From the NCBI GenBank assembly GCA_013398295.1, contig VZSF01006733.1, positions 918,923 to 982,922 on the forward strand: a stretch of DNA of 64,000 nucleotides, in the 5' to 3' direction. Numbering within the stretch: position 1 is the stretch's first letter; each line of letters begins with the position of its first letter. The translations under genes and the position numbers were made by a program. Positions 30,501-55,853 of the stretch are shown in pieces. The stretch comes from Chionis minor (taxonomy: Eukaryota > Chordata > Aves > Charadriiformes > Chionididae). The notes below the pieces were generated by a model. That model saw nothing but the letters and a program-made list of their open reading frames with translations. It had not been told where the DNA came from and made no database searches.

Positions 30501-32002
30501 GTGACTGCAGTCCTTGTTACCATGCTGACATGGAATTTGCCACTGTCTTCCCACTTCTGAACTTTTGCCTGAAACCTACAGAATTACGTGTATCAAGAAG
30601 AGCCTTTTACCCACTCTCTTCATTTGACAGTTGTCTCTTCCATTGGAAGAGTAATTGATACCCAAGTATCCCAAACATCGCTTGGAGTTTTGGCACAAAT
30701 ATTACAATGATGCTCTGTGTGGATTCATTGCCCCCAGAAAATTGCTTAACTTTAGAATATTAGGCAGACTTAATGGCAAGCCAGTTTTTCTTAACAAGCA
30801 AAAAGCTTTATGTCTTAACTATAAAAATGAATATTTAAAAGAAAGCATTGCTCCTTGGGGAGTGATTCAGTTGCCTGAACATTGGTACCTGACAATGAAG
30901 GGGCTGGCATGTGGTTTTCTTTCTCTTGGTTTTTTTTGGTTTGTTGTTTTGTTTTTCTTTTAAGAAAATAAAATATAAATGATACATTAATCTAATATAT
31001 TTGAGATATGGACCAAATCCTTTCTTTTTCTGTACACATAAACACCCTACATTTTCAGAATCTTTGTATTACACACACCCAAACCTTGTTTCACTTAGTA
31101 AGTTCAGGTGAACAATGTAGCTATGGAATAGGGTTCAGGGCACCTGCCAGGTCCTGGACTCTGGGTCACTACTGACCAGCTTAGCCCAGACTTAGCTCTG
31201 TGCTGCTGGAGATAAACTACCATTAACACTGAAGCTAATTATAAATTCCTGTAGGTCTACACGACCTGCTGTGACACCTTTGAACTGCAGAGCAAAGGTA
31301 CTATTAGAGCATGAAACCAGCATGAGAGGAGATTACAGTTGGACCCAATTCATTATGCATTCCCTACACCAAAGCATCCAGTACTTTAAGATGAGCAAAA
31401 AGGTCTTTGGGGTCCTGTTTACCTTGCACAGGTCTTAGCACTAAAGAACCCCACACTTTGCACTCTGGACTCAAGGCTTTCATACAACTTAAAGGCAACA
31501 CAGCAGCGATATCATTGCCCCTTTATATAACAGTCCTGTCTTAACAACCCTATGTTTATAAGAGTAAGTTAAGTGGGGTAGAAACAATACTGTGATCACT
31601 GTTCATTTTTAGGCTTATTTCATTTTAATTTTTATTTCTGGGTTTCAGAACTGTATGAATACTCTTCTTGATGAACTGTTGTATTGCACTGTAAATCTGA
31701 TAGCCTGTATCTTTACTGAAGTGCTAAATGTATAATATCTAATTTGATTCTGCTGGTTTAGGACTAAATTTATATTCTTACACCCAGCTTGTCTAGCTTA
31801 GTTTTTAATATATATTTCAGTCATTTACCCACTCTGGTTTTAGCAAAAAGAAAAAAAAAAAAAAGTGTAATATTCGATTGATCCTAAATCATTAATGTTA
31901 AGCAGCAAAATTTTCTTTGGTAATAAAGTAAACCACAAAGTTACATTTCTTCCCTTCAGGTCTTAAGTCCTGATAAGAAAGATAAATTAGATGTGAGGAA
32001 GA
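27514..32002. other. Non-coding DNA, no gene recognised
   Basis: Mostly AT-rich unique sequence. It holds two AT dinucleotide stretches around 27520-27572 and an A-rich run near 31849-31865. The longest plus-strand open frame (30655-30963, 102 codons) ends in a poly-Phe tract from a T-rich run and has no recognisable domain. Confidence 0.5.
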
Positions 32003-34320
32003 ACCTGTTAACTTTTTGACTCAGGTGGTGGAAGTGCCAACAAGGAGAGGTGCACTACTGGACCTAGTGCTGACAAAGAAAGAGGGATTGGTGGAGGACA
32101 TTAAGGTTGGGGGCAGCCTTGGCTGCAGTGATCATGAGAAGACAGAATTCAGGATTAGGTGTAGTGGGCATAAAAAACTTGGACTTTAGGAGGGCTAACT
32201 TTGATCTCTTCAAGAAACTGCTTGGAGAAATCCCATGGGTTAGGGCTCTAGAGGATAGGGGGGCTCAAGAGAGCTGGTTGATTTTCAAGTATTATTTCCT
32301 CCAATCTCAGGATCGGTGCATCCCTAAGAGCAAGAAATCCAACAGGGGAAGCAGGGGACCTGCAAGGTTGAGCAGGCAGCTCCTGGAAAAGCTTAAGTGG
32401 AAGAAGGAAGTTTACAGTATGTGGAAGAAGGGACTGCCCACTTGGGAAGATTACAAGAATGCCATCAGAGTATGCAGGGTCAAAACAAGGAAAGCCAAAG
32501 CCTCCTTGGAATTAAATCTGGCAAGAGATGTCAAGGTCAACAGGAAGGGTTTCTGCAAGTACATTGGAGGCAAAAGAAAACTAGAGAGAATGTGGGCCCT
32601 CTGTTGAATGAGACAGGTGCCATGGTGACTGATGATGCAATGAAGGCGGAGCTACTGAATGACTTCTTTGCTTCAGTCTTCACTACTCAGGCCAGCCCTC
32701 AGGACTCACAGACTCCCCAGGTAACAGGGAAAGTCTGGAGCAAGGAAGACTCCTCCTTGGTTGGGAAGGATCAAGTTAGAGACCAGTTAAGTAAACTGGA
32801 TATCCACAAGTCCATGGGTCCTGATGGGATGCACCCACGAGTGCTGAGGGAGCTGGCAGAAGTCACTGCTGGTCATCTCTCCCATCATCTTTGAAAAGTC
32901 CTGGAGAACAGGCGAGGTGCCAGAGGACTGGAGGAAAGCCAATGTCACTCCAGCCTTCAGAAAGGGCAAGAAGGAGGATCCAGGAAACTACAGGCCAGTC
33001 AGCCTCACGTCCGTCCCTGGAAAGATAATGGAACAGCTCGTTCTGGGAGTCATCTCCAAGCACCTGGAGGAAAAGAAGGTTATCAGAAGTAGTCAACGTG
33101 GATTCACCAAGGGGAAGTCATGTCTGACTAATCTGATAACCTACAACAGCATGACTGAATGGGTAGATGAGGGGAGGGCAGTGGATGCTGTCTACCTTGA
33201 CTAGCAAGGCTTTTGACACTGCCTCCCACAGCATCCTCATCCCTCAGCTTAGGAACTGGGGGTTCGATGACTGGATAGTGGGGTGGATTGAGGACTGGCT
33301 GGCAGGTAGATCTCAGAGGATTGTGATCAGTGGGGCAGAGTCTAGTTGGATGCCTGTGACTAGTGTTGTTCCTCAGGGATCAGTACTGGGTCCGGTCTTG
33401 TTCAACATATTCATCAACGACCTGGATGAAGGGATGGAGTGTCCCAGCAGCAAGTTTGCTGATGGCACGAAACTGGGAGGGGTGGCTGACACACCAGAAG
33501 GCCGAGCTGCCACTCCGCATGACCTGAACAGGCTGGAGAGCTGGGCGGAGGGGAACCAAATGAAGTTCAACAAAGGCAAGTGTAGGGTCCTGCACCTGGG
33601 GAGGAATAACCCCATGCAGCAGTTCAGGTTGGAGGCTGACCTGCTGGAAAGCAGCTCTGCAGAGAGGGACCTGGGAGTCCTGGTGGACAACAGGATGACC
33701 ATGAGCCAGCAATGTGCCCTTGTGGCCAAGAAGGCTAGTGGTCTTCTGGGGTGCATTAAAAAGAACATGGACATCCTCCGCCTTTACTCTGCCCTGCTGA
33801 GGCCACATCTGGAGTACTGTGTCCCATTCTGGGCTCTCCAGTTTAAGAAAGACAGGGAACTGCTAAAGATGGGACAGCAAATGGCTACAAAGATGATTAG
33901 GGGGCCGGAACATCTTTCTTATGAGGAAAGGCTGAGGGAGTTGGGTCTTTTACTCTGGAGAAGAGAAGGCTGAGGAGGGATCTCATCAATGCTTACAAAT
34001 ACTTAAAGGGAGGGTGCCGGGAGGAGGGGGCCACTCTTTTTTCCGTAGTGCCGAGTGATAGGACAAGAGGTAACGGGCACAAACTTGAACATAGAAAGTT
34101 CTAGCTGAACATGAGGAGAAACTTCTTCCCTTTGAGGGTGTCAGAGTGCTGGAAGAGGCTGCCCAGAAAGGTGGTGGAGCCTCCGACTCTGGAGACATTC
34201 CAAACACACTTGGGTGCCATCCTTTGCAACCTGCTGTAGGTGGACCTGCTCTGGCAGGGGTATTGGACTAGGTGGTGTCCAGAGGTCTCTTCCAAACCCT
34301 AACATTCTGTGATTCTATGA
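32003..34320 (+). mobile_element. Longest CR1 LINE copy: end of endonuclease through reverse transcriptase to 3' tail
   Basis: About 2.3 kb. It starts in the last part of the endonuclease domain (a VPTRRGALLDLVL-like piece near 32035, then the LGCSDHE motif near 32120 with the catalytic His kept). It continues through the linker, the complete reverse-transcriptase region and the 3' untranslated part, ending at ACATTCTGTGATTCTATGA. The 5' end is truncated, as is usual for LINEs. The ORF is split by several frameshifts, so the copy is dead, but nearly every ORF2 block is recognisable. Confidence 0.95.
32107..33973 (+). pseudogene. CR1 ORF2 reverse transcriptase, multiply frameshifted, catalytic FADD changed to FADG
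   Basis: The protein would copy CR1 RNA into DNA at a nicked target. Successive pieces are 32107-32607 (linker: FRRANFDLFKKLL, ARLSRQLLEKLKWKKE, KAKASLELNLARD), 32397-32894 (LLNDFFASVF, HKSMGPDGMHPRVLRELA), 32917-33204 (EDWRKANVTPAFRKG, YRPVSLTSVPGKIMEQ, RGFTKGKSCLTNL) and 33167-33973 ([18 protein letters not shown]). Each change of frame is a disabling indel, and the 33204 TAG falls at the YLD/KAFD boundary. The catalytic motif at 33455-33466 reads FADG instead of FADD, so one metal-binding Asp is missing. Downstream, [13 protein letters not shown] marks the C-terminal part. Confidence 0.93.
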
Positions 34321-35394
34321 ACTAAATATTTATCATGAAAACTACTGATTGTCTCTTTAAGTTCCTCAGACACTTATTAATTGAAATGTCTCCCAAAGCC
34401 AGACATTTCAAGGATGCAAAAAATAAAATTGTATCTTTTAAATTTTGTAGCCACATATCCCCAGTGTTTTCATATGCTCAAATCTGATTTCCTTGTAAAC
34501 CAACAAGGTAGTCCTTTGTTTGGTTAAGTAAACGTAAATAAAATTAACAACTGTGTGTTACCCGTCTCTACTCACATGGGAGATTTTCTGGCTTTTTAAA
34601 CCATAAAATTAAGCCTCAAACAATGTTATTATTGGCTAGAATTTCAAGACAGAAATGTTTTGCATTAACATGTGCCTGAGCTTTTTCTGTCATTTAATAT
34701 TCTCAGTTTGAATGAGCCTCTTTCAAGGGCTGCATGCTGGTTTTGCTGGTGGCATTACATGAGAAACTCCAGGAAGGCTCAGGGTCCTCAGTCATGAAAA
34801 AACAAATCAAAACATAGGCTTTATTCCCCTCCCCCAGCATCACATCTGAAGGAAAACATGAAAATATGAAATTATAAGTCCCTATGTAAACAACAATATG
34901 CCATAAAAGTACCCGAGGCTTTTACTGGAAAGACAATAAAATACAAGTCAGCAGTTAGATCCCCTTGCAAAAGCACAACTCACACTAGGTAGTAATTTAT
35001 CAGGAATAATTATCAAGTTGTATTTTGCACTGACGAGCGTAGCTTGGATTCTACATCTCACTTGTCATCTACTTTTAAAGAAAATATTAATAATTCAGAG
35101 AAAGACTAGAAGAAGGCAACAGAAGATAAAAAGTTTATAGACTATAAAAAATATTTTATGCAGATAAAATGGTAGGGAAAATGTTCTGCATAAAAGGGTT
35201 GATGATTTAGGGTCCAAGAAAGCTTGCTTCATGGTCCTCAGTTATGCAAGGTTTTGTGGACATATTCTAAGACATCAAAAGGTAGCTAAGAAAAATAGAA
35301 CCTACCAAAAGCAGCTTTCAGGGTACCATGCAAGGGTTCATACATTCACTGGAAAATCTTTAAGAGCCTCAAACTGAAAAAGGCTGAAAATTAC
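34321..35394. other. AT-rich non-coding DNA
   Basis: No gene or known repeat recognised. Confidence 0.5.
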
Positions 35395-35760
35395 CTTGAA
35401 AAAAAAAAGCTGAAAGGAGACATGGTAACAGCTTTACAGTACACAGCAGTGTGCCAGAAACTGGAAGGTGATCCATCATCTGTTCTCTTTGGTCGCTGGG
35501 AAGATGCCAACAACAAATCAGCTTAATTGACAACAAATGACATTTTTGATCGCTTGACCAACAAATGCTTCCTCAAGTGGGATATTAAGAAAAAACTTTC
35601 AAGCCACAAGAACAGTGAAGCAGATTCCTCATTTCCTCCAGATAGGCACTGAAATCAGCTGCAATCCATGGAGGTGGTATCTTTGTAACATATCCCTTAG
35701 ATGTCAGAAGTATCAAGGTACAAGTACATCACAGGATGCAGACTGCTATTCAGAGGCTTG
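35395..35760 (+). mobile_element. Ancient CR1-type LINE 3' fragment
   Basis: The stretch follows the order of the ORF2 C-terminus of old CR1 elements. It has GAAAGGAGACATGGTAACAG (the 'RGDMVTA' region), then CATCATCTGTTCTCTTTGG, AACAAATCAGCTTAATTG, AAGAAAAAACTTTC, AACAGTGAAGCAGATTCCTC and GGAGGTGGTATCTTTG. Divergence is high, with no open frame. Identification rests on the series of landmarks, not on one motif. Confidence 0.6.
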
Positions 35761-36849
35761 ATGTAGCTTGTTCCCTTCCCTAAGAAATGGGATGAGGACA
35801 GATCCCATGGAAAAATTTTCATGTACTTCGTTAGAGACTGAGTTTCAATTCTGAAGTGAAATCATGACTTTACCAGTCATATTCTGACTCCAAGCCAACG
35901 TCAAGGTTAAATTGTCTCAGACTGTCCTTCACAATAGATGGACATTAATGTTATAACCTGCTGAACTTCTTTTAACTTCTTCCTTATTTTCTGCTTTTTG
36001 TCTTCCTTTTCTTCACCAAGTTAAAATGCAGCTTGTTATAGGAACAATGGGAACCACAAGAACAGATGCAGCAAGGCACCACTATGGGAGGATAATGATA
36101 TGTTCTCCAGCACCTACTAGCAAATAAAAAAAGTAATCGTAGTGCCATTTTGGAGGGAACCCAGCAGAGCATTAAGACTTGCGTACGTCTCACTGCTCAC
36201 AAAGCAGCACAGAAAACACCTGATATTGAAGTTCATTCTCAGGCTCAAAAGAACCCCCACATTTATTATTAGGGACACAGAAACAAATCATATCTGAAAA
36301 AGACACTCAAAATGGTTGTGGAAAGAGAATCAAGAATCATGTTTGTGAGCACGATGTATTCTTGTAAACCAAGCCGCAGACAGAGTGAGATGAAAATGGA
36401 AACGCAGACCTCAGCAGCCCAGTGCTTTTTTAAATCTCCAGGAATGCCAAATCTAATCTACTCTTTTTTGAACAGCCAAAACTCTTCCAGAAGACAGGTT
36501 TCTCCTCCTAGGTTTACAATGCAACTGTTCTCCAAGAAGCTCCTTCCTCCATGAATCCCTGAGCTTCTATTTTCCACCTGAATTACATCCCTTTCTCAAC
36601 ACACATTATTTATAAAATCCTAACATAATCATTTTATCAATTTAACAGCCAGGGAAAACCAGTCCGACAAACACAGGCTGAGCAGAATTCCAGACTGAAA
36701 GAATTAAAGAATTTCTGGTTTTCCACATTAATTTATACCTTTGAGAGATTGGGTAAAAGTACTAAGTCATCTCTTGCCGATGCAGATCGTAGTTTTAAAG
36801 TAAAAACAAGCTGAAAAGTTCATTTACTATGATTGTAAGACCAGGTATT
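35761..36849. other. Non-coding DNA, no gene recognised
   Basis: No recognisable gene or repeat. Open frames are at most 80 codons. Confidence 0.45.
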
Positions 36850-38216
36850 GAATTTTAAAAATTTATTTCTGCAAAGGAAAGGTCAAAGTTTTGAAGCATC
36901 AGGGAAATGTAAAAATCGCAGGGAATGAGGCACGTGGCTGGAAACATTATGAAACCACAGGAAAGAATGCAGGAGAACTGCTTCTTTCTGTAGTTTGACT
37001 CCTTCAACATATTCTTGATGGTGAACACTGGGTCAGGTGTTACTCCAAACTGCATGAGTTTGGATCATGCTTTCATTATGCCATCTATTTGCTGCTTTGC
37101 TGTGGATATTTCCTGTACTAGTGCAGTTATGGTCTTCCTGACTTCTTGCCACTGTGATAAAGAACTACTTGTGCTGCAGTGTTTTAGGCCAAACTCCTTT
37201 GTCACCTAATTGAGCCATGGTTTTGAAGAAACCTTGGTAGGCACCAGAATTTGTCATACCACCTATGCTGTAGGGGAAATCCTAGGGCTGTCACCCTGTA
37301 GGCTGCCACGTTAGATATTCTGGATGACCTAGCATGATGTCCTACACCTGTGTGAAGGCCTGAGGTCCACCATTGTGCGTCCCACAGCCGCTTGTTTTCA
37401 TGCCATGCTGAGTGCTGCTGTAGCCCACCAGACCACGGCAAGGACCCATGAGAGTGCAAGTGCAAGACCACAGACATCCTTGAGAACATGATACAAGGAA
37501 CATCCAGAATATAAACACAAATGATGGGCAGTTGGCCTCTGGTGCCTAAAGAAACATTTCCTCGGAAGTTGGATAGAACCAGTTTTAGAGCATAGCAAAG
37601 AGAATAAAAAAAACGTTTCCAACAGGAAATGGATCCATTATTGGGTGAAGAAGCAAAGGTGGTAATGAGATGATAAACCAGTCATGCCTCCTACCAGAAT
37701 GAGAGCAAGGTAAGCGCAGGAACAGAGGAAGTGCTCCAGCCCTGTCTTGCCTGAGTAAAGGTGCTGCACCTGATCGATGCTACTGCAAATCTGCAGTGGT
37801 TCCTCTTGTCAGCTCCAGCAGAGAAAGGGCACTGGTGCTCGAATTGCCATTTGCCACATTCTGCCACTGCAACTCAGCAGTCATGTGCGAAGGGTTATCT
37901 CGGACTACATCATTGTGTTAAGGAAATCAGTATTTTAAAGAGCAATCACTGTCTTCTGGTCCAGCCTTCCAACACAACAAGGTAATTGAGGCCAAAGCAC
38001 CAAGGAAGAGTGTGGGTGCAACAGTGTATCTTACAAATCTCATTAAGAAAACCCCAACAGTACAGCATTTAGCTGTCTTGTTTACTAATCTGCGCATAGT
38101 TTCGTCTGACGTAAAAGTGACTGGCAGAAAGAACAGAAGACTAAGGAAAGGCTCCAGACACAGGCTTTTCCAAAGACAGAGTCCACCTCACCTTCTCAGA
38201 TATGAAGACGGAGATA
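36850..38216 (-). mobile_element. Possible degraded internal region of an endogenous retrovirus
   Basis: This lies directly downstream, in minus-strand terms, of a minus-strand LTR, where gag would start if that LTR were the 5' LTR of a provirus. Minus-strand translation gives several long but broken frames. One is a hydrophobic stretch of about 20 residues near 37410-37470 followed by basic residues. Another is a Gln/Lys-rich helical-looking piece (TALVQEISTAKQQIDGIM, about 37080-37130) that continues after a stop into a 66-codon frame ending at 36855. I cannot match these to a specific retroviral protein. Context suggests retroviral; unrelated host DNA is equally allowed. Confidence 0.25.
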
Positions 38217-38682
38217 GAGCTTACGCAGCGTCAAAGCCTTTTCTGCTCCTCACATGGCCCCACCAGTGAGTAGGGGGGAGTGCGCAATAGGTTGGGAGGG
38301 AGCACCCCCAGCTGGGACAGCTGACCCCAACCGCTAGAGGGATATTCCATATTATATGATAATGTGCTCAGCAATAAAAGCGGGAGAAAGCAGGGGGGCA
38401 TTCGGAGTTATGGTCTTTGTCTTCCTGAGTAACCATTTAGCATAACGAAGCCCTGCTTTCTTAGAGGTGGCTGAACACCTGCCTGATGGTGGGAAGCAGG
38501 GAATGAATTCCTGAGTTTACCTTGCTCACACATGCCTATTAAATTGCTTTACCTATTCAACTGTCAGTTCCTATCCACAAGTTTTCTAACTGCTGACTTT
38601 CGATTCTCTCCCCCAGCCCAGTGTGGGGGGAGTGAGCAAGTGACTGTGCAGCTGAGCTGCCCGCAGGGGTTAAACCATGACA
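38217..38682 (-). mobile_element. 3'-truncated LTR of the same retroviral family as 17662-18260
   Basis: The reverse complement begins TGTCATGGTTTAACCCC at 38682 and follows the 17662-18260 LTR block by block. Shared blocks are AGGAATTCATTCCCTGCTTC, GGCAGGTGTTCAGCCA, ATGGTTACTCAGGAAGACAA, the GTTGGGGTCAGCTGTCCCAG region and AGGAGCAGAAAAGGC, ending near GACGCTGCGTAAGC. About 130 bp of the LTR 3' end is missing. Divergence from the 17.7-kb copy is much higher than between the 17.7-kb and 50.6-kb copies. This points to an older insertion or another subfamily. Confidence 0.88.
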
Positions 38683-41255
38683 AGGGATTAATCCGATAAT
38701 AATCCTATATTTAATCCCATTGCTTGGCCTGAATGTATGAAGTATTGTAACACTGAAATGGAACACAGTGTTTCTTACGGCTCACATCCTTTAGCACTTA
38801 CTGGATTTCTGGATACAATTGCACCTCCTAGCTTAGTAACTGCTTGTGGAGTGGACTCAAAGGTCAGAACCCTTCAAATTCCGTGATATTTGTGGAGCTC
38901 TCTAGATCAAGAGACTATCAACCAGCTTTCAGTCAAAAACTCTTCATTTTATATGGATGAAAAGACGCACAGTTTTATTTAGTGGATGTTAGAACAGAAC
39001 TCAGAACATTTGGTTGTTCAGTTTTTGCCTAAGCATGGTTCATCACAGCCCAACCATTTCTGAAACTCCACAGGGATTATAGAGTATAAGAGATAAAAGG
39101 CCTGTTAAAACACCATGGTTCTTATAAATTCTTATCTTGCCGATTTGTCAATTTTTCATCTGTGAAGGATTTTATAAGCATGAAAAAGCATCCTAACAGG
39201 GTACAGAGACCATCAGTGCCCTTTAAAGAGACATGAGCCTTGTAACCATTCAGTATTGTTGTCTTTGAAGGATGGAAAAGAAAGAGCTAGAGGTTGCAAT
39301 GTGCAATGAAGATTAAAAGCACTTTTCCTGTAGAGAAGAGCACATCTGATATCTATTTAAAGATAATGATAGCAGTCTGAGAAAGGCAGGTGAAACAAAG
39401 GGACAAGGAAAAATGTGTCTAAATAAAAAATAATGGTCATGAAGCTTAAAGGACTTAAAAATAAACACACATCAAGTCACTAACTGGTAAAAAATAAAAT
39501 CTTAAGTGATATTTATCACATAACTGAACAGATATACATAAAAAGAACAATGTTCTTCACCTCAAATGGTAAATCAAAAATGTGCTTTTAACCAGGAACA
39601 GCCCAACAGAGGGAAACAGAGAAACTCTTGATTCACTCTTGACATTGCAGAGATAATGGCATCACCTCTCTAGACAGTGAAGACCAAGTCTGAAGTCCCT
39701 TCTTAGGGCCTTTTTGATTTAATTAAAAACAAAAGTACTTGAAAGGAAGACAGGGAGTTCGGGAAGTAACTTGTGTTTTATGCCAGGGCCTGAGTGACAA
39801 CTCCATCTAGCTGAACTGCTGTGTCTTAAATGATCTATAAAACTCTAAAAACTCATAAAACTCAAAGAGCGTTCCCAACCAATCTGGTCACCATGAAGAG
39901 TAAGACTCATTTCATGAGTTTTTTAATTTTCCCTCATTCAGGCTGTGCTAAGAAGATAAGAAGATACAAATACAGATTTCTGCCAGAGTGCAGTTCACAG
40001 AACAAATTCTCAGCTTTTATACATGGTTGCATCTTGTTAAACTCCACAGAGACGTACAGATTCAGAGAAGCTGAGTATCTTGTCCATCAAGCAAGTAATG
40101 CTGTTGTATTTGCGGAAAGGAACAGTTTATTTTAGGACTAGAAAAGGAAACTATTTTATGCAAGATTGCTCTAGCCTTGCAGAGTTTGGCTTGCAACAAA
40201 ATTTGCACACAGAAACTGGATTTGGTTCACCTACTTGAAACTCATAAATAACATCTTGCTCAACAGACCTGACCAAATTTCCTCAACAAGTTGTAGGGCA
40301 ACTTTTCTGGCTCAAATATCTTCCAGAGTCTTAAAACCTGCTGGCACAGAAGCTGCTTATACATGCTGGACAGCTGCTTCGTAACAAAAAAACCATTTAG
40401 AACTTCAACCTCTTTCCCTTTATGCTAAAGAAAGTGATTATTTGCTTGATGATTGATATAAATGTGGGCAGTTTTGATGACGGCCAGCAGATGGCAATGG
40501 TATGCACACACAGACACATGTACAAGCATGTGTGCGTACACATGCATCCATGCATGCCAGCCAATCCGTTACAGTGCTTTTGAATAATGTTTTGCATGTG
40601 AATTTTCTAAAATCCCACGTCTAATCCAGATGTACGAGCAGAAATTGAAAAATTCCAACGAAAAGCTGAAAGATGAATGTTTGGGTTCGTACTCTAACAA
40701 GCTTGGATTACCAAAACACACACTGCCAGTAAAACCGTTCAAGGTCTCCCATGAGAACTTAATATACAATTTCAGTATCTTTACTTGTCTGGTAATGTCT
40801 CTGGAAAGCTAGTCATAATCATAAACTTAATTAAAAGATGTCCAGAATTAGACTGACAGGACCATGAGCCTAAGTCTGTCTTCTATCACACTCACCATAA
40901 TATGTTCTGAAGCTATCCTATATCCCACATACTATCTTGCTAGTCACTATGTAGCTATTAAAGAAAAATGTTTTTCTTTCATTAGGAAGCACTGAAGCTT
41001 TCATGCATAGTAAATGCTACTTACAGAGGGATATTTTACAACCCTCAGTGTTTAAAAAAAACCCCATCGTTTCTATGCAGGTAATATATGTAAACCACTT
41101 AATGGAACTAGTCACAGTAATGCTTGCTTTGGTGTCAATTCCATTACTTTGATCAGTGCCCTTTCAAGGTAGAAAATAGCTTGTGGAGAACATGCCCTAT
41201 CCAGAGAAACAAATACTTAGAGAATTTGTGACTTTTGCTCCACAAAAGTCACAGG
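38683..41255. other. Non-coding DNA, no gene recognised
   Basis: AT-rich, without a recognisable gene or transposon. It includes the palindromic block at 40514-40544, listed separately. Confidence 0.5.
40514..40544. repeat. Alternating ACACATG / CATGTGT inverted repeats
   Basis: ACACATG (40514-40520), CATGTGT (40527-40533) and ACACATG (40538-40544) form two mutually exclusive 7-bp hairpins with loops of 6 and 4 bases. They sit in a longer stretch of mostly alternating purine and pyrimidine (about 40500-40556). Such sequence can adopt cruciform or Z-form DNA in principle; there is no sign of function. Confidence 0.8.
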
Positions 41256-41632
41256 TGTATTTGAAGGAAATGCTGAAATTAATCCAGAATTAAGAACGGA
41301 GAAGAAATAGCTAACGTCTGCTTTTTCAAATTTGCATTCTGTACATCAGGAAAAAATTCACTGAGGCTGAAAATAATTCACTGCAAACAAAATAGCGCGA
41401 ATAAGATTTGGCTCAGGCCTCCCTGTGTGTTACCTGTTTGCCTGACTTCACATTCTGATGATTTAATGTTGTTTCTATCTCCATTGCAGTCAAGTATTTC
41501 AGATTAATGAGCACATAGGACATACTGTTATGCTGGTTCTTAGACCCCTCTTGCTTCTTCCTCCATCTGCCCAGGACAGATCAGTGGAATTCTAGGCAAT
41601 GCTACTCTTATGCAAAATAATAATAATAATAA
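41256..41632 (+). repeat. First copy of a 377-bp exact direct duplication
   Basis: Identical by eye to 41983-42359, at an offset of 727. It ends in an AAT repeat exactly at the N at 41633, whereas the second copy reads through the same AAT repeat into new sequence. That is the pattern of two overlapping contigs of one locus, not a biological duplication. Confidence 0.93.
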
Positions 41633-41633
41633 N
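41633..41633. other. Single-N assembly gap (first of three in 1 kb)
   Basis: An isolated N after an AAT microsatellite, joining two contigs. See the finding on scaffold order. Confidence 0.95.
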
Positions 41634-41875
41634 TGAAAAACATCATGTGGGAAAGGTTTGGCTGGGAGCAGAGCAGAGGATTTGGCAGAAGGAGAAAGCT
41701 TTTTTTGCATGCTCCCAGCAAATCTGCCACCATCACCCCTCCTTCACTTCTCTTTCCCCCACTGAAGGAGACGCAAACTTTGAAGATGCCTGTGGAAAAG
41801 CATGGAAGAAGAAACGTTATCACAGAAAAAGAGTTTGAAAATCAGTATATCTTGGGCCACACTGCTCAGGGACTG

Positions 41876-41981
41876 AATCATATAATCATATAATGTTAGG
41901 AGTTGGAAGGGACCTCTGGAGATCATCTGGTCCAATTCCCCTGCCAGAGCAGGTCCACCTACAGCAGGTGGCACAGGATGG
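41876..41981 (-). mobile_element. CR1 LINE 3' end, cut by an assembly gap
   Basis: On the plus strand it begins with the reversed CR1 tail (AATCATATAATCATATAATG). It continues through GTTGGAAGGGACCTCTGGAG and CAGAGCAGGTCCACC to AGGTGGCACAGGATGG, where an N interrupts it. The next expected CR1 bases (GCGTCCAGGCAGGCTTGGAA) are found at 42603, after a second copy of the last 24 bases. The two pieces are one element. Confidence 0.93.
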
Positions 41982-41982
41982 N
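41982..41982. other. Single-N assembly gap (second of three)
   Basis: Joins the CR1 3' end piece to the second copy of the 377-bp duplicated segment. Confidence 0.95.
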
Positions 41983-42359
41983 TGTATTTGAAGGAAATGC
42001 TGAAATTAATCCAGAATTAAGAACGGAGAAGAAATAGCTAACGTCTGCTTTTTCAAATTTGCATTCTGTACATCAGGAAAAAATTCACTGAGGCTGAAAA
42101 TAATTCACTGCAAACAAAATAGCGCGAATAAGATTTGGCTCAGGCCTCCCTGTGTGTTACCTGTTTGCCTGACTTCACATTCTGATGATTTAATGTTGTT
42201 TCTATCTCCATTGCAGTCAAGTATTTCAGATTAATGAGCACATAGGACATACTGTTATGCTGGTTCTTAGACCCCTCTTGCTTCTTCCTCCATCTGCCCA
42301 GGACAGATCAGTGGAATTCTAGGCAATGCTACTCTTATGCAAAATAATAATAATAATAA
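41983..42359 (+). repeat. Second copy of the 377-bp exact direct duplication
   Basis: Matches 41256-41632. Beyond the AAT repeat it continues into unique sequence (42360-42577), so it is the more complete version of the same locus. Confidence 0.93.
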
Positions 42360-42577
42360 TAAAAAAGGCAGTACTGAAAGCTTTTAAACTTGCCTAGAGC
42401 ATACATTGATCTCTAGAAATTTATTGCATAGGTAGCCCTGAGCAGAAAATATTCTGTTTCCCATATCAGTCTAGATACACCAAAGTGAAATGCACATGTC
42501 TTGGTGAATCATGGATGTGTGCTCCAAGATAGTAAGTCTCCAGCTCACCAGGTTCTCAAAAGTGCAGGGTCCCCATC

Positions 42578-42578
42578 N
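42578..42578. other. Single-N assembly gap (third of three)
   Basis: Followed by CCTACAGCAGGTGGCACAGG, which repeats the bases just before the gap at 41982. Confidence 0.95.
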
Positions 42579-42690
42579 CCTACAGCAGGTGGCACAGGAT
42601 GGCGTCCAGGCAGGCTTGGAATGTCTCCAGAATCGGAGACTCCACCACTTCTCTGGGCAGCCTATTCCAGTGCTCTGGTATCCTAGACCT
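42579..42690 (-). mobile_element. Continuation of the CR1 LINE at 41876-41981
   Basis: Starts with the same 24 bases that end the earlier piece (41958-41981 equals 42579-42602). It continues in order through GCGTCCAGGCAGGCTTGGAA, TGTCTCCAGAATCGGAGAC, CTCTGGGCAGCCTATTCCAG and TGCTCTGGTATCC before similarity is lost near 42690. Encoded on the minus strand this is the end of ORF2 and the 3' region. Confidence 0.92.
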
Positions 42691-43984
42691 CCTGAATCAT
42701 GTCGGATGTATTTCCTATTTGCAGACCTCTGAATTGTGTCACAGCCTCTGCTTTGTTGAAGTTTGCACAGTATTCCTTACAAGAATAAAGTACTGTAGTC
42801 TAGCACAGATCAATTCTGTGTCTAAAATATTGTTCACAGAAGCAAGTGGTGGGTAGAACAAATATTAATACTCTGTAAAATAATGAAAAATGGTTAGTCC
42901 CAAGTTCCTAATGCACCCATCCATGCTCTATGTGGATGACTCGTGTCCCTTCAACCAGTTCTTCCTCTGGTTATACATGGGACCTAAGTTACTCAGGCTC
43001 CAAAACCACTTTGGTACTTTTGAAAAGGTTTCTCATTATGAACTGCCTCAGACTTTTTCCTGAACTTTATGAGGTCCTCTGGAATGGATGAACATTGAAA
43101 TGCCTTTGATACTATCATTGTCTCTCAGAGTAATAATTATAATTAGCTCTTTTCTAATATCCTCTTTTGGCTTTGGTACAGCTAAGACTATAAAACAGAC
43201 TTGAAATTTATCCCAGGCACTGTTGGGAAGTCTTTTGTATTTTAAGTCAATACCTAAATGTAATCAGCTTTCTTAATTTGAATGAAAAGTCTGTATGAAG
43301 TCAAAGGACTTTTATGATGTTCTACAAAGATATTAGACTCCTACTCCTGTGAAATAACCTTGATTAGATGCCTAAAGACTCTGGTGAGGGGCATGGTAAA
43401 ATGTTTCCTGTTTCTCTTTCCTCCTTCACCCGTTTCATCCCTTTATCCTTCTCCTACTCCTTTCCATCTACACAGAATCTTCCTTTACAAGTCCCCTAAG
43501 CCTCTCCCACATTCTTGCCTCTCCAAAAACTTACTCTCTTTTCTCCTTTTCATTTCTAAATACTTCGTATGCATCATTTACAGCCGCTGTGTTTCCTTCT
43601 GCAGTCAGAAATCATTTTTAAAGACATCTGCCCCTGGCTCCCTAAAAAACAATCTCATATCAAATTGTCTGATAACTGCTTCCTAAAAAGCAAGTATTCC
43701 ATCTCCACCACTCCTTGCTGAGGACTGTTTTGTCTTCTCATATTTGGGAATTGTTGCTCTCTTTCAGTTCTTAGGATTTGGCCTTTTGTTGGTCATGAAT
43801 GTATCTATAGGTGTCCTAGAGGGTTCAGTCATTTTCCACTGCTTTTTCCCTTCTCCATACTGTCACTGAGCAACAGAATTCAGAGCACCTTTGTTCTGAG
43901 GAGTCTCCATTTTACTTCTGTATGGAGTTTTTACCTCTGATACAGATGTAAACTTCATCTTGTGTTTCTCCACGTTCTTATCAC
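42691..43984. other. Non-coding DNA, pyrimidine-rich in part
   Basis: No gene recognised. About 43400-43560 is C/T-rich, giving a Ser/Pro/Phe-rich frame of 108 codons (43360-43686) that is low-complexity translation. Confidence 0.5.
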
Positions 43985-44165
43985 GGGTCTGTATGAAAAT
44001 TCAGATGGGAGGACACCAGGAGGTCTCTAGTCCAATCTCCTGCTCAAAGTAGGATCAGCTATGAAGTCAGATCAGTCTGCTCAGGGCTTTATCCAGCTGC
44101 ATCTTAAAAATCTTGATGGAAGGAGAATGTGCAGCCTCACTGGGAAGCCTGATGTAGAGCTGGAC
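43985..44165 (-). mobile_element. Old CR1 LINE 3' fragment
   Basis: The plus-strand order AGGAGGTCTCTAGTCCAATC, TCCTGCTCAAAGTAGGATCA, CTCAGGGCTTTATCCAGCTG, ATCTTGATGGAAGGAGAATG and CCTCACTGGGAAGCC is the reversed CR1 3' region of an older subfamily. No open frame; boundaries approximate. Confidence 0.75.
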
Positions 44166-46204
44166 TGCTCTTGTGAATCTCAGTTGCAACACCCTGAAGA
44201 GTACTCAGAGTGCTGCTTTTCTTTACTGCTCACTTACTATGAAAAAATCTATACTATTTCTTGTCATCAAATTCCATTACCAGGGTGCTGGTGATGCACA
44301 GACACTCAGAGACAGAATTCTTTGTGTAGAAATTAATTTCTTTGGATTGGGGCACAGGGCCATGCACAGGGCTTAGGGTATTGCAGCTGTCTGGTGGCAA
44401 GAGGAATCTCTGTTGCAACGGTCCTCACAGCAGCATCTTCAGCTGGATAGAGCAAGACTCACTGATTTGCTGTTCCGCTCATTTCATATAATCTAGCTGG
44501 CCTGTGGTTGTATGTGATTGCTTCAGCACACGTGTAATAAATTGTTATTGATCGTCTCAACTATATACAAAACATCTCTGAAACACCTTACCAAAGAGCT
44601 GTCCTACGTGACCATTTCTGCATCTGTAGGAACATTTTCTATTGCCTATTTACACTCTTTATTCACGTACAGTATGATCGATCCTGCAGCAAGAATCTCT
44701 GCGACACTCCACCCATGACATTAATCAATAGATTTAAGCAAATAAATGGGACTTGACACAGCAGGAGCTTCCTGGTGGGATCTCTAGGGCTGTCTGAAAT
44801 TCCCACCTGGAGAGCTCTTGCAACAATCAATAAAATACTTAATTTTCAAGGTGGCTGGGGTTTCAGACAACTACCTAGTTTTTTTAATTCTCAGTTGGAA
44901 AGTGATGATGACAGTGAGCTTAATTCCTAACTTTCATGAGATGGGGGAGTAATAAAGTCCTGGGAGTCTTTTGCTGTCACTAGTATGTATCTCAATCATT
45001 TCAATAAACCATTTATTCCTCCAGGCACTAAGTGGAAGTCTCCAGCTGGGATTCAAATTAGCAAATGAGTTTACTATAACACCATCACATTGACACAAGC
45101 ACAGGAATGGATTTTTCTTTGGTATTTTTTGGTCACTGTAGTTAACCGTGCATAAAGAAGAAGGACATTGTATTCATTCATACAGGACGGACAGGTCTGG
45201 TTTGTACACATTTGTTATTAACGTATTTTTGTTTCTTGTTCCAGGTATATTTGTTGTATTTTAGTCAACTCTGCTAAGCCAGGGTTGGTGCCTGATATTG
45301 TTGTTGTTATTTGGGGAAAAAATAAACAGAAAAAAAATCCTAAAACACCACAAATTTCTCTTTTTGTCTCTTACTTTGTATCAATATCTTATTTTTGGAA
45401 TGAAAGACTGAATGAAAATATTCTGATGTTACCTCATTAATGCAGATTCAGGGCTGAGGCTTGCTAAGCCCTATTTTCACTTACCCTGGTATGACACAGC
45501 AAGACCATTCATTTGATCAAGTTCAGAATACACTTAAAACTCAGAATTTATGCAGTTGAATTGTGAAGAGAGGGAGGGTATATGGTCCTATTAGAAAAAT
45601 TTTACACAAAATAAAACTTCAGGTCCTTGAGCTTGGGTATCTGAGGTGAAATGATAATGAGTGAAAGAAATTACGATCAACATAATTTGCTTTTACGTGT
45701 TACTTTAATCTTTCCCACAAAAACCACTGAAAATTCCTGGTTATGGCACTTGCTTGAAAGCTGCATAGGAAAAAGTTCATAAAATTAAATTTCCAAATCC
45801 TTCAGTCACTATTTGCTCAAACAGTTCATAATACTATAAATTTTGCTACTTCTAATGCGTGTGTGTGTGTTTTAATGAAGACAGTCCTTACACATTGGAA
45901 AACTGAAATATTAATAAATACATTTAACCTGACTGACTCGAAGCTTTACTTCAATGTCACTCTGAAGGCTGCAGTCAAGTTTGAGAATGAGTATACAAAT
46001 GTATGCAGAAAACCAGATGCTCCAGCCCATGAAATATTTGTGTTATTTATATTTTTACAACACAAACAGCTTCAGAATGTCTGTTGTTAGCTTTGCTGTA
46101 TGCTTTGGGCAAGGTAAATGTCCACTAACAGAAAGCTTACAGAAGCACCTCAGTAAAAACATAATGGCAAGTAGATATATCCTATATAAGGACAGATATA
46201 TGTG
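44166..46204. other. AT-rich non-coding DNA
   Basis: No gene recognised. A short GT run lies near 45858-45870. Confidence 0.5.
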
Positions 46205-46435
46205 CTAGAAGATAAGAACAAAAGTCCACACAGCCTGGTATTCTGTGGCTGACAGTAGCCAAAACAAACGCCTTGGGCATCTGGGAGAGAAATAAGCACA
46301 TAATGATTTTCCCAGAATATTTTTCTTCCTTCCTGCTGTTTGCAATTCAGAGATATCTTGGAAGAAACATGATATTTTTGTATTTAAGAGGACTGAGGTA
46401 GATGGATTACAGCCTGTATGACCAATATTCCATTC
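46205..46435 (-). mobile_element. Ancient CR1-type LINE 3' end
   Basis: The plus strand reads AGATAAGAACAAAAGTCC, CCTGGTATTCTGTGGCTGAC, AGTAGCCAAAAC, AATAAGCACATAATGATT, CCCAGAATATTTTTC and CAATTCAGAGATATC. This is the reversed 3' region of an old CR1 type shared across birds, turtles and crocodilians ('AGAACATAAGA...ACAGTGGCC'). Highly diverged and inactive. Confidence 0.65.
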
Positions 46436-48195
46436 CCTGCTAAAAAAAAAGCTGAGCACATAAAAACCAGTCAGCTGATAAGCATTTCTAGGGGGGCAAA
46501 ACAGTCTTTGTTATATTTCCTTTCTTGTAATTTACGTGGTACTACAAACACAAATCTTGCCTCTGTGGCCCTGTTGAGTCTAACAGTAGGTAGGAAAAGA
46601 GAGGATTTGGAGTTTCGGAATTAATATCTTTTTGTTTGGCAATACAGCATTTGGATGCGTTTCATGCTTTTGTGTCAACATCGGCATGCGTTTGGCAGGG
46701 AGCGCATGAAGATGTTCAGGGCAGCAAAGGTTCACAACTCTTTTCCAACAGGTTGCAGCTCACTGTGGCAAGTTATTCTGGTTTAAATTCTTCTGACTTG
46801 GTTGAGAAGGAGCATGCATATTCTTTTCAAAACATCTTTAAGTCTTCTGGAATGAAAATTACCTTGATCATTTAAAGTTTTCCTAAGGTGGAGACACTTC
46901 TGAACAGCACTTAAGGAGATTTTCTTCTTCCCATTACTTTTCTTTAACTAATATAGTGAAGAAAATCTTATCTGTTTAACCACTTTAATTAAACAAGTGT
47001 GATATTTTTGTGTGAACATTATTGTTTTGGATTAACTTAATTATCTAGTTTAAATATTCTGAATCAATTTATAGAAAAAATAATAATAAAAAGAGTATTG
47101 GACTGGAATTCTTGCTTACATACAGATTTCAGTGTTTGTCATTTAACTCCACAGCTCAGGTTAAGCTACTGTGATTTTGAATCTTGGGCAGTGTACGATG
47201 CCATTACACAGACTATCCAATTTTTGAGTCTATGTTTTCTGGGGTTGTATTTACTTCATCACCTATTTCCCCTTAAAAATTCTGCACTGAGCAGAGACAT
47301 TTGTGAACAACAAAAAAAAATCTAGAAAACTATTTTCATGATTAGCAACAGCAAAAAACACAATTGGAATCTACAATCATTGGGAAAATGCTTATTAGCA
47401 TTAAAATTTTGGATCTCATCCAGCAGACAAATCTTCAGAACCAAAAAAAATTTTGTGGTGACTAACACTTTACAAAATTAAGTTTTTCTCTTATTTGAAA
47501 TAGTAAAAAGAGCAGTTCCTTTAGGCTATTTTACAGAGCTAAGCATCGAAAGGATCTATAATAGCCAGATTTAAGCTATTAAAAGGGAATATTTTAAAGG
47601 CAATTAGTGAGGTTTTTTGCAAGACAGTGTCTTGTAATCTCCCATTTGGGACAGTTTTTTGACACTGTATTAAAGCTTTTTTATACACAGACTGTCAAAG
47701 GAAGCTTCTCTTCTTACAAACATTGTGTGTTAAAGCTTAGAGAAATTCTTGTTAGATGGAAATTATTGGCACAATAATATTTTTTTTTTTTACACCATTG
47801 GGAAATTACTTATCTTTAATTAAGATATGTGTCAAAATACTGTCTGCCCATACACAGCTTTATGAGGAACTCTTAGAAACTTTATTAAGACAAAAGACAG
47901 AGCTGGCGACTGCAAAAGATATTTGTACCTAAATATCAGGACCACTTGGGTCCTTTGTATGTACGGAACTGTATAAAGCCTCTTTGAGGGAAAATAATAT
48001 GAGCGCCTTTTGTCGTTGTCTTTAAAAGGAGCAGGGATGGGTCCTGATGAAGTGAGAGTGAGATGGCAGCAGGCTCCTATTCCTTGTGCATTAATAGTGA
48101 TGGAAACAGAGAAAAAAACTGCATGGGCAGCCAGGTCCACAGCAGGAAGGCCAGTGGCACGGACATGATGCCCATCATTGCTGTCATGGCTTCCT
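46436..48195. other. AT-rich non-coding DNA
   Basis: No gene or known repeat recognised. There is a T run at about 47780-47792. Confidence 0.5.
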
Positions 48196-48500
48196 GATGA
48201 GGGGAAGTGCAGAGGGAGACGCTGATCTCTTCTCCCCGCTATCCAGCGAGAAGATGTGTGGGAATGGTTCAAAGCTGCACCAGGAGAACTTTAAACTTCA
48301 CATTAGGAAGCATTTCTTTACTGAGACAGTGGTTAAACACTGGAACAGGCTTCCTAGAGAGGTGGTGGTTGTCCCAAGACTGTCAGTGATTAAAAGGCAT
48401 TTGGACAACACCCTTAAAAACATGCTTTAACTGTTGGTCACCACTGAAGTGGCTAGGCAGTTGGACTAGATCATTGTTGTAGGTCCCTTCCAACTGAAAT
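48196..48500 (+). mobile_element. 5'-truncated CR1 LINE 3' end
   Basis: Pieces in order are GACGCTGATCTCTTCTCCCC, TTAGGAAGCATTTCTTTACT, TAAACACTGGAACAGGCTTC, CTAGAGAGGTGGTGG and TTGGACTAGATCATTGTTGT, then GGTCCCTTCCAACTGAAATA. A 77-codon open frame (48197-48430) holds the ORF2 C-terminus (LHIRKHFFTETVVKHWNRLPREVVV). The expected tail units are replaced by a long pentanucleotide array starting at 48501. Confidence 0.92.
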
Positions 48501-48612
48501 ATTGTGTTGTGTTGTGTTGTGTTGTGTTCTATTCTATTCTATTCTATTCTATTCTATTCTATTCTACTCTATTCCGTTCCATTCTGTTCCGTTCCGTTCC
48601 GTTCCATTCCAT
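48501..48612 (+). repeat. Compound pentanucleotide microsatellite grown from a CR1 tail
   Basis: Three sub-arrays follow the CR1 3' end directly: GTTGT units (about 48502-48527), ATTCT units (about 48527-48566), then degenerate ATTCC/GTTCC units to about 48612. The CR1 tail is built of ATTCTATG-like units, so the ATTCT array most likely expanded from it. The Tyr/Ser/Phe/Pro-rich open frame crossing it (48502-48735) is an artefact of the array. Confidence 0.93.
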
Positions 48613-50550
48613 ATCTTAAAATATCTTATTTTGTCTATTCCTCAATGTCTAATAAATTACTGTTTATACTGTGATTCCTTAGCATTTGATGAAAGGGGCT
48701 GTATTGTTAGAAACAACCCAAATCCCCACCCTTAAAATCTAGAAAAGAGGGTAAAAAGTATCATCTTGGATTCAGTCCGGAATTCAGCAAATAAAGTTTT
48801 TAAAATAAAATAAAAACTTCATTCTTATACTAGATTTTTCAGAACATGACTTTTCTTTGAGTTCTGTCAGGAAAAAGGATAACAGTAGTTCAGCAATTGA
48901 AAATAAACTATTCTCTGATTAGTTTTTAGCCAGAAAAGTCACTCAGCTTTCCTAGCAGTCATGTTGTGAAGCCTCTTTACAGAGTTTTGCTCGCTCCCAC
49001 CTTGTGTACATTAGAACTAGCTCCAAGCAGAACTGCAGAATGGAGAAAATATTGCATGCTTTCAGATACCTCGTCCTCTTGTTCCAAAACTTACTTTCTC
49101 ACCAGGCAAGCCCATGAGAGCTCATTAACGCAAAGCCCAATTCTTGACTGTCTGTCAACTTGATGCCACTGAGTCCACAGACATACTCCAGAGCAAAATC
49201 GATGTAACAGAGTGAAAATAAAACCCCTACTCATTGTCCACATCTTGTCTCTTTTAATAAAAAACTATACATTTCTTCGGTATTCCTTTAAGAAATTTAT
49301 ATTTGTTGCGTATGAGACTTGAGGTTTATAATATGACCACATTATTATTCTTTCTCCTGCTTTTTTTTTTTTTCCCCCTAACCTAAGTTAAGCTGAAATT
49401 TAATACTACACTGTTATGTTTCAACTGTAGAAGTCAGTTGTACTTTTCATCTTTGATGCTTGGCTGGGAGGGGGGTCCCAGAATCACAACCCTCTCCCAG
49501 CATTAGTGGAGATAGTCCAGAGCCATTTCTGCAAACTGTGGCAGTGGTATCCTTTTTTGTCCATTCAGAGCACTTTATGTCAGCACCTGTCATAGTTCTG
49601 CTCCCGCTATGTAGCGGTCAAGTGGTGTAAACTGAGTTTAAACAGAACCCAATTTTGTTCCTGGCACAGGCAAGTGCTGGAAGCAGGATCCATTTATTCT
49701 CAAGAGGATCTCAGAAATCTCTTTACCTCTTGTTCCACGCTAGAGTCAGTTTGGTTGTATTTGTGTGCAAATACCAAAGCAGTCTTGGAGAAGGAGTTAG
49801 GCTGTGGTCTCAGTGCTTGCCTTTTCTCAGTTCTCTGGAGAATCTGCTGGCAAGAAACGGTAAAACATGAAGATCCCTCGGTTTTATTTATTGTCAATGT
49901 TTATGTTAACTCAGTCGTTTTAGCAGAATTTAACAGCTGTGAAACCCCACCACAGAGATGTTCCTGGAATAATTATCTCCTGCTGCAGTCTAATCAGAGT
50001 AGAGAATGTGACTGGGTCAAGGCTTTGGAGTTTGCTAAGATGAGATCCATGCAATGATAAATAATGTATGTGTCTAATGTGTTGCAATAAGATGTAAAAG
50101 AAAATTAATTCCAGAGGCAGTTTTTGTTATTCTCAAATCTGTAACCTGTCATCTTCACTGTGAGTAAAATGCCAACTTACAGCTAAAATCCTGTTCTGCA
50201 AATGCAATCCTTTGGTTATGCTAATTTTAATTTTAAATTTAATTGTTTGCATTTTACAATTCTTATTATTAGCCTGGAAGCCAGTTCTACCTCCTAAATT
50301 TTAAGACACACAAAAAGCTATTTTCCTGTTCTAGTACTGCAGATGCAAATGATGATGTCGTAGCTGTATCTCAACTGTTTTTCAGGAAGGCCATTGATAA
50401 TGAACTGAGGAGGAAACTAGGGGAAGGTTTCTGAGGAGGAAACTGTTAGGAAGGCCTGTAGGAAGTGGGGGGCTTGGGACAGGAAGGATCTAGATACCTT
50501 TGGTAGATATAGTATGTAGGCTACAATGCCATAGAAAACTGAATTTCATC
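48613..50550. other. Non-coding DNA, no gene recognised
   Basis: The longest frame (49674-50057, 127 codons) has no domain, codon or splice evidence. A small direct repeat, CTGAGGAGGAAACT, occurs twice around 50404-50443. Confidence 0.5.
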
Positions 50551-51137
50551 AGTCATGGTTGAATTCCAGCCAGCAACTAGGACGACTCAGCTGCTCACTC
50601 ACTCCCCTCTGGAGGGATGGGGGAGAGAATCAGAAGAATATAAGTGAGAAAAAACTCATGGGTTGAGATAAAGATGGTTTAGTAGGTACAGAAAAAGCCA
50701 CACACTCAAGCAAAGCAAACCAAGGAATTCATTCACTGCTTCCCATCAGCAGGCAGGTGTTCGGCCATCTCCAAAAAAGCAGGCCTCTTATCACACATAA
50801 TGGTTACTTGGGAAGACAAATGTCGTAACTCCTCACGTCCTCCCCTTCTTTCTTCTTCCCCCAGCTTGACATATTAAGCATGACGTCACATGGCATGGAA
50901 TATTCCTTTGGTCAGTTGGGGTCAGCTGTCCCAGCTGTGTCTTCTCCCAACTTTTTGTGTACTCCCAGCCTACTCACTGGTGGGGAAGGTATGAAGAGCA
51001 GAAAAGGCCTTGACTGTTTAGCAACAACCAAAAACATTAGTGCGCAACCAACAGTATTCCCACACTAAACCCAAAATATAGCCCTATACCAGCTGCTAGT
51101 GAGGAAGTCATCTCCATCCCAGCCAAAACCAAGCACA
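50551..51137 (+). mobile_element. Second plus-strand LTR of the family seen at 17662
   Basis: Aligns end to end with the 17662-18260 LTR. Shared blocks include AAGGAATTCATTCACTGCTT, CAGCAGGCAGGTGTTCGGCC, ATAATGGTTACTTGGGAAGA, TCAGTTGGGGTCAGCTGTCC and CTCCCAGCCTACTCACTGGT. The ends are decayed: AGTCATGGTT for TGTCATGGTT at the left and AAACCAAGCACA at the right. No clear target-site duplication remains. No internal retroviral genes flank it, so it is also probably a solo LTR, somewhat older than the 17.7-kb copy. Confidence 0.92.
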
Positions 51138-52894
51138 GTTACTGTGTCTGACACCTGGGGACAGTAACTTCCTACCAGCTTTAACACTATCTAGCTCAAG
51201 TGCTCCTCTTCAGCTTTTGGATCTGGTCCTGAACTCCTAACGCTTAAGCTTCAAAATGACTTCAAGGCACTTCACCAGCCAAAAACACTAAAAGATTCAC
51301 TTTCCCCCTTAATGAAATGACTTTGGAGTGAAATATGACTTTTTTTCACAGAATGAATCAATTCTAAACAAGATTTTATTAGGGGGAAATGTAACATACC
51401 AGGTGGAGCTGCAATGGGAATTTTAAATTGGAAATTAATCAAACTCCAAATTCGACAGGTTAGTAGAGTTAATATAACCTGACTTTTAGAAAATGCCCAC
51501 TAGTGAACATTGTGCAAGACTTACTTTCCAAGTGGGAGAAAAAATGCAAACCATTTAGCTAGGATCTGCTACATGCTGTATCTCCTTACACCCAACAAGG
51601 TTACACCAGTGCATTCCATAACAAGTGACTGGACATGTACAAATGGAATAGGTTAATCTTTTGCTCTAAAAATTCACTAGCTCCAGGCAGACCTCTGTCT
51701 GGAGCAACTGCAAAAGTGGGTTTAGGTGACCTTGATGTACATACCGCTGAGTACAGAGATAATAATCTGAGAATATATATCTAAATCCAAACTACCAAAG
51801 CTAAGTGCTAGAGTTCTATGCTCAGCTGAAATTTGTTTAACGTATTTGCAAACCAGCTTGGCTAACACCTAATTTTAGCAGCAGAATTACTGCTAATTAG
51901 TTCAGTATTCAGCAACTCAGCTTTCAGACACCCTTTTCCTATTGACATAGATATGAAATGCATAGACCAGCCTATGAGAAGACAAGTTAGCTGGACAGGG
52001 AAAAATAACTGGTATCGTAGCACACAACATAACTATTGATCTGGCAGCTGATAGTTTTGAATGTCTAACAGGACATTTCTAATAACCTAAATAAGCAACA
52101 GCTGAAAATACTTATCAGAGAAATTAAAACAGAGGAAGAGAAGACAAGGACAAAATTCACTGAGTCATTCAGCACGTGAAATGAAAGAAAAACTGAGTGC
52201 ATATAAGGTTAAATAGGAGAGATGATAGAAATCTTTTATTGAGGTGAATGTAAGAATTTTTTTTATATCTATTGTACAGTATTCTTTGAGACAATCCTCA
52301 GCTGTCTGACTGCCATTAGGTTGTCCTGGGATTCAGTAGTTAATAAACTGGTAAAGTGAGCAGTATAAAGTACTGGTTTAAAAAACTCACTCCCTTGGCA
52401 AGGGACATTCCTATCACAGAACTAGCAAAAGAGATTATACCATTTGCTCACACATGCCATTCTGAAAATACAGTATACTTATTTTCACTCAGGGCCAACT
52501 GCATATGTAAAAAAAGCGTGCAAGATCTTGAGTTTTTGGACTGGACAAATTGCTCAAAGCTAGGTCAGATGAGATATCTATATCGAAAACTCTGACTGAA
52601 GGAAATCTTTCATGTTGACCACCCTACAGGAGCACTTAAGTCAACACATACAAGCCCATCTTACTCTGACGGTTCCCAGGCACCTGGATTTCTGTTTTTA
52701 TGCATGTCCAGTGTCACGCCAGTGCCAGAATCTGGGTGCCAACCTTCCACAGACCTGGGTGCAAGCCTGGAGGCTCAATGGAGTGTTACCCACCTTCCCC
52801 AAGGGACTCTGCTAAGATTTTGTTTCTGTAAAACTGTAGCTCCAGCTGCTTCCCTTTAAAATAGACCTGGAGGAGGCATTTGACCCTGGTGCCC
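51138..52894. other. AT-rich non-coding DNA
   Basis: No gene or repeat recognised. Confidence 0.5.
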
Positions 52895-54894: not shown

Positions 54895-55300
54895 ATAAAA
54901 GGAGCCACTAGAGATAATCAAATCCAGTATCTTGTGGTGCTCATGAATGAGTCGTTGTTTGATATGTTTTTAAAAGCCTGTAAAGAGATTTTGCAGCCGT
55001 CTTCTATGACTTTAAATAGATCATTTTCACAATGATTAGAAAGTGTTTCCTAACATTTAATTTAAATTCCTCTGTGACAAAAGTTAATTCACTTCCTTAC
55101 TTACTTTAGGCACGTAGAAAAATAGCTTATACTTCTTTACTATAACCTTTGACAGACAAATCACAGCATTATTATGATTTCCCCTTTATATCTCTCTTTC
55201 TTAGACACAACAAAACTGATCCCTTTATGAGTCTGGTTTTGATCCTTTTAATATTATTTTAATCACTGCTCTGGATAATACTGAGTCTCCTTAACAAATG
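54895..55300 (-). mobile_element. Ancient CR1-type LINE fragment
   Basis: The plus strand gives, in the order of a reversed old CR1: GTGTTTCCTAACATTTAATT, TTTAAATTCCTCTGTG, TTCTTTACTATAACCTTTGA, ATTATTATGATTTCCCC, TTAGACACAACAAAACTGAT, CCTTTATGAGTCTGG, TGATCCTTTTAATATT and ACTGCTCTGGAT. This spans the end of ORF2. Highly diverged, with no open frame. Confidence 0.7.
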
Positions 55301-55818: not shown

Positions 55819-55853
55819 CAATAATAATTAATAATAATAATTAATTAATAATA
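55819..55853 (+). repeat. AAT/TTAA-rich simple sequence
   Basis: Irregular ATA/ATT units directly to the left of the AAAAG array; probably part of the same unstable tract. Confidence 0.85.

Follow-up and report, generated by a model that had tools for sequence, protein, structure and literature searches.

A probable contig-order error producing a false duplication and a split CR1 element in a Chionis minor scaffold

Introduction

Two exact repeats lie interleaved among three single-N gaps in a 64-kb window (the whole stretch of Chionis minor DNA that was analysed, positions 918,923-982,922 of contig VZSF01006733.1), which raises the question of whether they reflect a real event in this genome or the way in which the assembly was put together. 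We consider it very probable (roughly 0.94) that the locus carries a local contig-order error yielding a false duplication, an assembly artefact in which the true order would be A-C-(gap)-B-D, the letters denoting the pieces listed below. A preliminary description had read the locus in the same way, and from the sequence this reading appears strongly supported, short of proof. The artefact is of an ordinary, well-described kind, and there is no biology in it.

False duplication by overlapping or contained contigs has been described for chicken, chimpanzee, cow and dog, with most of the duplicated overlapping contigs shorter than 2,000 bp (PMC2864568), and false duplication is also reported for zebra finch, hummingbird and platypus, where gaps between copies on the same scaffold are given as a main mark (PMC9516828). 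SOAPdenovo2 is reported often to insert gaps between overlapping contigs (PMC5368935); the subject there is gaps, not contig order.

Exact repeats bounded by single Ns

Five Ns are found in the window (25898, 41633, 41982, 42578 and 60697), every run being a single N. Cutting at these positions gives six pieces, in order Z, A, B, C, D and E (25,897, 15,734, 348, 595, 18,118 and 3,303 bases, respectively), of which Z and E are cut by the window edges. The features of the locus are as follows.

25899-41632, plus strand: contig A, which ends inside an (AAT)n microsatellite; the first copy of the duplicate lies in its final 377 bases (41256-41632)
41633: single-N gap; its neighbours as deposited do not overlap
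41634-41981, plus strand: contig B, 348 bp; carries the CR1 3' end; its final 24 bases are the first 24 of D, and its place would be directly before D
41876-41981, minus strand: CR1 fragment in B; final ORF2 codons with the stop, followed by the 3' UTR and by ATTATATG units at the end; left edge placed by eye and approximate
41982: single-N gap; its neighbours as deposited do not overlap
41983-42577, plus strand: contig C, 595 bp; its first 377 bases (41983-42359) are the probable false duplicate of the end of A
42360-42577, plus strand: unique part of C, 218 bases; extends A beyond the (AAT)n repeat, so that the place of C would be directly after A
42578: single-N gap; its neighbours as deposited do not overlap
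42579-60696, plus strand: contig D; starts with a 24-base repeat (42579-42602) of the end of B
42579-42684, minus strand: CR1 fragment in D; codes for a C-terminal part of ORF2 and lies upstream of the fragment in B; right edge taken from the alignment to 34135-34320

The bases at 41983-42359 are identical to those at 41256-41632 (377/377), and the bases at 42579-42602 to those at 41958-41981 (24/24), both equalities having been reported earlier with exactly these coordinates. The first copy of the 377-base repeat ends at the N at 41633 and the second begins after the N at 41982; the first copy of the 24-base repeat ends at 41982 and the second begins after 42578, so the N-bounded copies of the preliminary description are as it gave them. 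Contig C starts with TGTATTTGAAGG and finishes with AGGGTCCCCATC.

A scan of the window for exact same-strand repeats of at least 24 bases, with copies no more than 2 kb apart, returned only the 377- and 24-base pairs, a 24-base pair at the gap at 60697, a 104-base tandem at 4622-4832 and short-period arrays. When the whole assembly (1,146,497,876 bases, or 1.146 Gb, in 4057 contigs) was searched with the 377-mer, it was found at two places, both at this locus (41256-41632 and 41983-42359), the search skipping very common words and giving counts that are lower bounds. The assembly size, together with the CR1 content, points to a bird. A 28-base word from the 377 bases had no exact match in prokaryote genomes, nor had a 30-base word from the unique part of C in viral contigs, as expected for vertebrate DNA, and Rfam gave no match in the window at its gathering score.

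One order of the contigs keeps both overlaps

All ordered pairs of pieces were compared in both orientations for exact end-to-start matches of at least 8 bases. Just two exact dovetails exist among the six pieces, one of 377 bases from A to C and one of 24 bases from B to D, apart from their reverse complements. B and C can be placed between A and D in eight ways, and A-C-B-D alone, with B and C both forward, retains both overlaps (377, 0 and 24 bases at the successive joins); in the deposited order, A-B-C-D, the three values are 0, 0 and 0. This single arrangement out of eight is the order proposed earlier (sequence up to 41632, then 42360-42577, a gap, 41634-41981, and 42603 onward). The only gap-free path starts in A, crosses the 377 bases and enters the 218 new bases of C, in keeping with the earlier claim that C continues A through the AAT repeat, and the two joins needed by a real duplication (the 377 bases into B, and B into the 377 bases) are both Ns. 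The further opinion that a biological duplication is unlikely is upheld by exact, N-bounded overlaps and by there being one order that keeps both.

The join of C to B would be placed by elimination only, with a gap between them, as local alignment revealed no inexact C-to-B overlap above shuffles (local score 17, shuffled mean 16.7, with 81 of 200 shuffles scoring as high). When inexact overlaps within 300 bases were sought at each of the five Ns, only that at 60697 beat its 100 shuffles.

Set against the published description of false duplication, the locus has aligned ends of nearby contigs (A-C 377/377 and B-D 24/24, end to start) and gaps between the copies on one scaffold (Ns at 41633, 41982 and 42578); the description further names a lowered read depth and mate-pair distances that agree better once the contigs are merged. 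To these we added a criterion of our own, outside the published definition, namely that reordering should restore a known continuous element, and here CR1 is restored.

A and C might instead represent two alleles, differing for instance in the length of (AAT)n, both of which were kept by the assembler, so that heterozygosity would be combined with the swap and the deposited locus would still be wrong. Many false duplications in the chicken and zebra finch assemblies stem from split haplotypes (PMC2864568, PMC9516828), A does end within the (AAT)n repeat, and the failed overlap at 60697, described below, shows a 40-base length difference. We nevertheless regard an allelic origin as improbable, given that all 377 bases are identical, against a reported median of 98.1% in falsely duplicated contigs, few of which exceed 99.5% (PMC2864568), and that the whole-assembly search found the 377-mer on no other contig.

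A CR1 element probably divided between B and D

According to the preliminary description, B holds the 3' end of a CR1 element and D, from 42579, the next part of it in the same orientation, and both points agree with what we find. Read as D then B on the minus strand, the joined piece gives 31 protein letters in one frame, followed by a 3' UTR and a ATTATATGATTATATG tail, and hence has the ORF2 C-terminus, stop, 3' UTR and octamer-repeat tail that define a CR1 3' end. The octamer letters and the ORF2 ending matched to the joined piece are those that we take to be typical of CR1. The presence of an octamer microsatellite in the CR1 3' UTR is described in PMC4316615. This copy is 5'-truncated and too short to include a reverse transcriptase domain.

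The joined piece aligns without gaps to 34135-34320 (186 bases, 84%) and to 23471-23660 (190 bases, 79%), and its tail takes the same position as in both of these copies. Overlaps of B and D of 0 to 59 bases (60 values) were then assumed in turn and scored against the two copies, and an overlap of 24 bases scores best with each (126, next 123, against 34135-34320; 112, next 110, against 23471-23660). The deposited order reaches local scores of only 78 and 64, respectively. That reordering restores one continuous CR1, as had been claimed, is therefore borne out by the gapless alignment to two copies and by 24 being the best of the 60 lengths, which supports B and D as probable adjacent parts of one CR1.

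Beyond this locus, the joined piece has matches at six places in the window, with 66-86% identity. Four of these were left out of the overlap test: 56742-56831, which stops within the 24-mer; 22707-22884 and 48338-48495, which are CR1-like and cross the B-D junction only with 6 gap openings each at about 66% identity, a point against the proposed order; and 17350-17414, which matches the B side alone. At 32848-33973, on the plus strand, there are ORFs matching RVT_1 (PF00078), with the CR1 3' end aligned at 34135-34320 lying downstream of them, and we infer that 32848-34320 represents one element.

With CR1-like sequence so common in the window, one might suppose that the 377 bases were simply duplicated nearby and that the match between B and D is a coincidence of two different CR1 copies. 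The chance of this seems to us close to negligible: at the 66-86% identity of the six other matches one would hardly expect 24 bases to match exactly, and to do so right at the ends of two contigs, the 24-mer (41958-41981) has no further occurrence on either strand of the window, and no comparable repeat exists in 238,922 neighbouring bases.

The restored CR1 bears also on the earlier statement that three features agree independently, which needs to be qualified. CR1 continuity and the 24-base overlap are mutually dependent, and both would be seen as well if a real insertion had produced a target-site duplication of 24 bases; the feature that decides is the 377-base overlap ending at an N.

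Such an insertion would be real and very young: 595 bases copied from 41256 onward would have entered the CR1 as a templated insertion, giving rise to a target-site duplication of 24 bases. The continuation of A would then be hidden in the gap at 41633, and all three boundaries would be concealed by assembly gaps. In the deposited order C does sit in the CR1, with an exact direct repeat of 24 bases on either side, and taking C out leaves the CR1 continuous to the base. Class 1 templated insertions bear target-site duplications (PMC5110952), of at least 5 bp by the definition of the class; a direct repeat of 24 bases is present here, but it can equally be read as a contig overlap. Class 1 inserts typically also carry poly(A) at one of their ends (PMC5110952), whereas neither end of C shows a run of poly(A) or poly(T); class 2 insertions do not need poly(A), but they have no target-site duplication. 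The TTTT/A insertion preference in the same source is stated for human LINE-1 (PMC5110952). For a templated insertion, moreover, Ns would have to lie exactly on both insertion boundaries and where the first copy ends, and the gap after A would have to lack the 218 unique bases of C, whereas a swap of two contigs accounts at once for the N positions and the 218 bases. We therefore hold a templated insertion to be highly improbable.

Neighbouring stretches and the gap at 60697

As a control, 24 stretches of the same scaffold (L003-L026; 238,922 bases) were read separately, so that matches across stretch boundaries are missed. They contain seven gaps, six of which are single Ns and one a run of 97. 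At none of the seven do the facing ends overlap exactly by as many as 4 bases, and when the 200 bases on each side were aligned locally, no gap scored above its shuffles. Contig ends were also compared with the facing 2 kb (a shorter span close to a stretch edge), and the longest match at these seven gaps is 8 bases of poly(A). Exact same-strand repeats of at least 24 bases with copies 7-2000 bases apart number two in the control, both short tandems, at offsets 25 and 62, and within a stretch there is no exact repeat of at least 24 bases with copies 63-2000 apart. As the control gaps are without overlap and the control repeats are short tandems only, what is seen at 41256-42602 stands out as an exception within this scaffold.

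Homopolymer runs of 7-15 bases are found at five of the seven control gaps (L005:656, L006:7692, L009:2715, L010:1444 and L013:1949), and the scaffold breaks mainly at homopolymers in the sampled part. We also considered whether a single N could serve as proof of a negative gap, and rejected this, as six of the seven control gaps are single Ns and none of the seven overlaps.

The gap at 60697, between D and E, is a case of its own. The last 24 bases of D (60673-60696) recur in E at 60749-60772, and E has 10 further matching bases before these, then a 40-base stretch, absent from D, between. The arrangement resembles an overlap between neighbouring contigs that was interrupted by a difference in length, a second, smaller false duplication (60673-60772), and suggests that overlapping ends do go unmerged in this assembly. 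The gap-linked exact matches at 42578 and 60697, two of three such matches, are each exactly 24 bases long; as a guess, 24 bases may be the graph overlap length of the assembler.

Putative origin of the error

A swap would have set the short contigs B (348 bp) and C (595 bp) in the wrong order between the long contigs A and D, presumably where distances to two short contigs were imprecise. A may have broken in the (AAT)n repeat, and B and D inside repeated CR1 sequence. The swap would part both pairs, A/C (377 bases) and B/D (24 bases), so that matching ends were no longer neighbours and were left unmerged; in that event both copies would be retained, with a single N at each junction. For one scaffolder, overlaps of adjacent contigs are described as being aligned and merged only after placement (PMC9326850).

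The locus resembles the false segmental duplications of PMC2864568, in which nearby contigs with overlapping ends are laid side by side and the overlap is doubled. It differs from the cases given there in its identity (100%, compared with about 98%) and in that the overlapping contigs are non-adjacent, one other contig lying inside each pair and the two pairs being interleaved. It is also like the homotype false duplication of PMC9516828, with copies on the same scaffold, a gap between them and no differences; read-depth and k-mer criteria also belong to that class. The likeness to a class 1 templated sequence insertion polymorphism, as described in PMC5110952, lies in an insert flanked by a direct repeat that can be read as a target-site duplication; unlike that class, C lacks poly(A), has its boundaries at assembly gaps and sits beside its supposed template.

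Other repeats in the window

Elsewhere in the window, a 104-base unit at 4622-4832 is present in two tandem copies at 98% identity with no N, and may be a real tandem duplication. Pentamer arrays occupy 48502-48612 and 55816-55956 (TTGTG, TTCTA and TTCCG; AAAAG, about 20.6 copies at 100%), with a TAA-type repeat at 55816-55854. A dispersed repeat pair at 17663-18200 and 50552-51076 is identical at 451 of 516 aligned bases, and the TGTCATGGTT start near 17662 presumably resembles a bird retroviral LTR.

Significance

The finding serves as a quality flag only: 377 bases would be falsely duplicated, a CR1 falsely interrupted and 218 bases misplaced, and counts of duplications, young insertions or CR1 breakpoints at this locus would be misleading. 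With nothing but the sequence, any scaffolded draft can be screened for the signature, namely end overlaps between contigs that lie one step apart.
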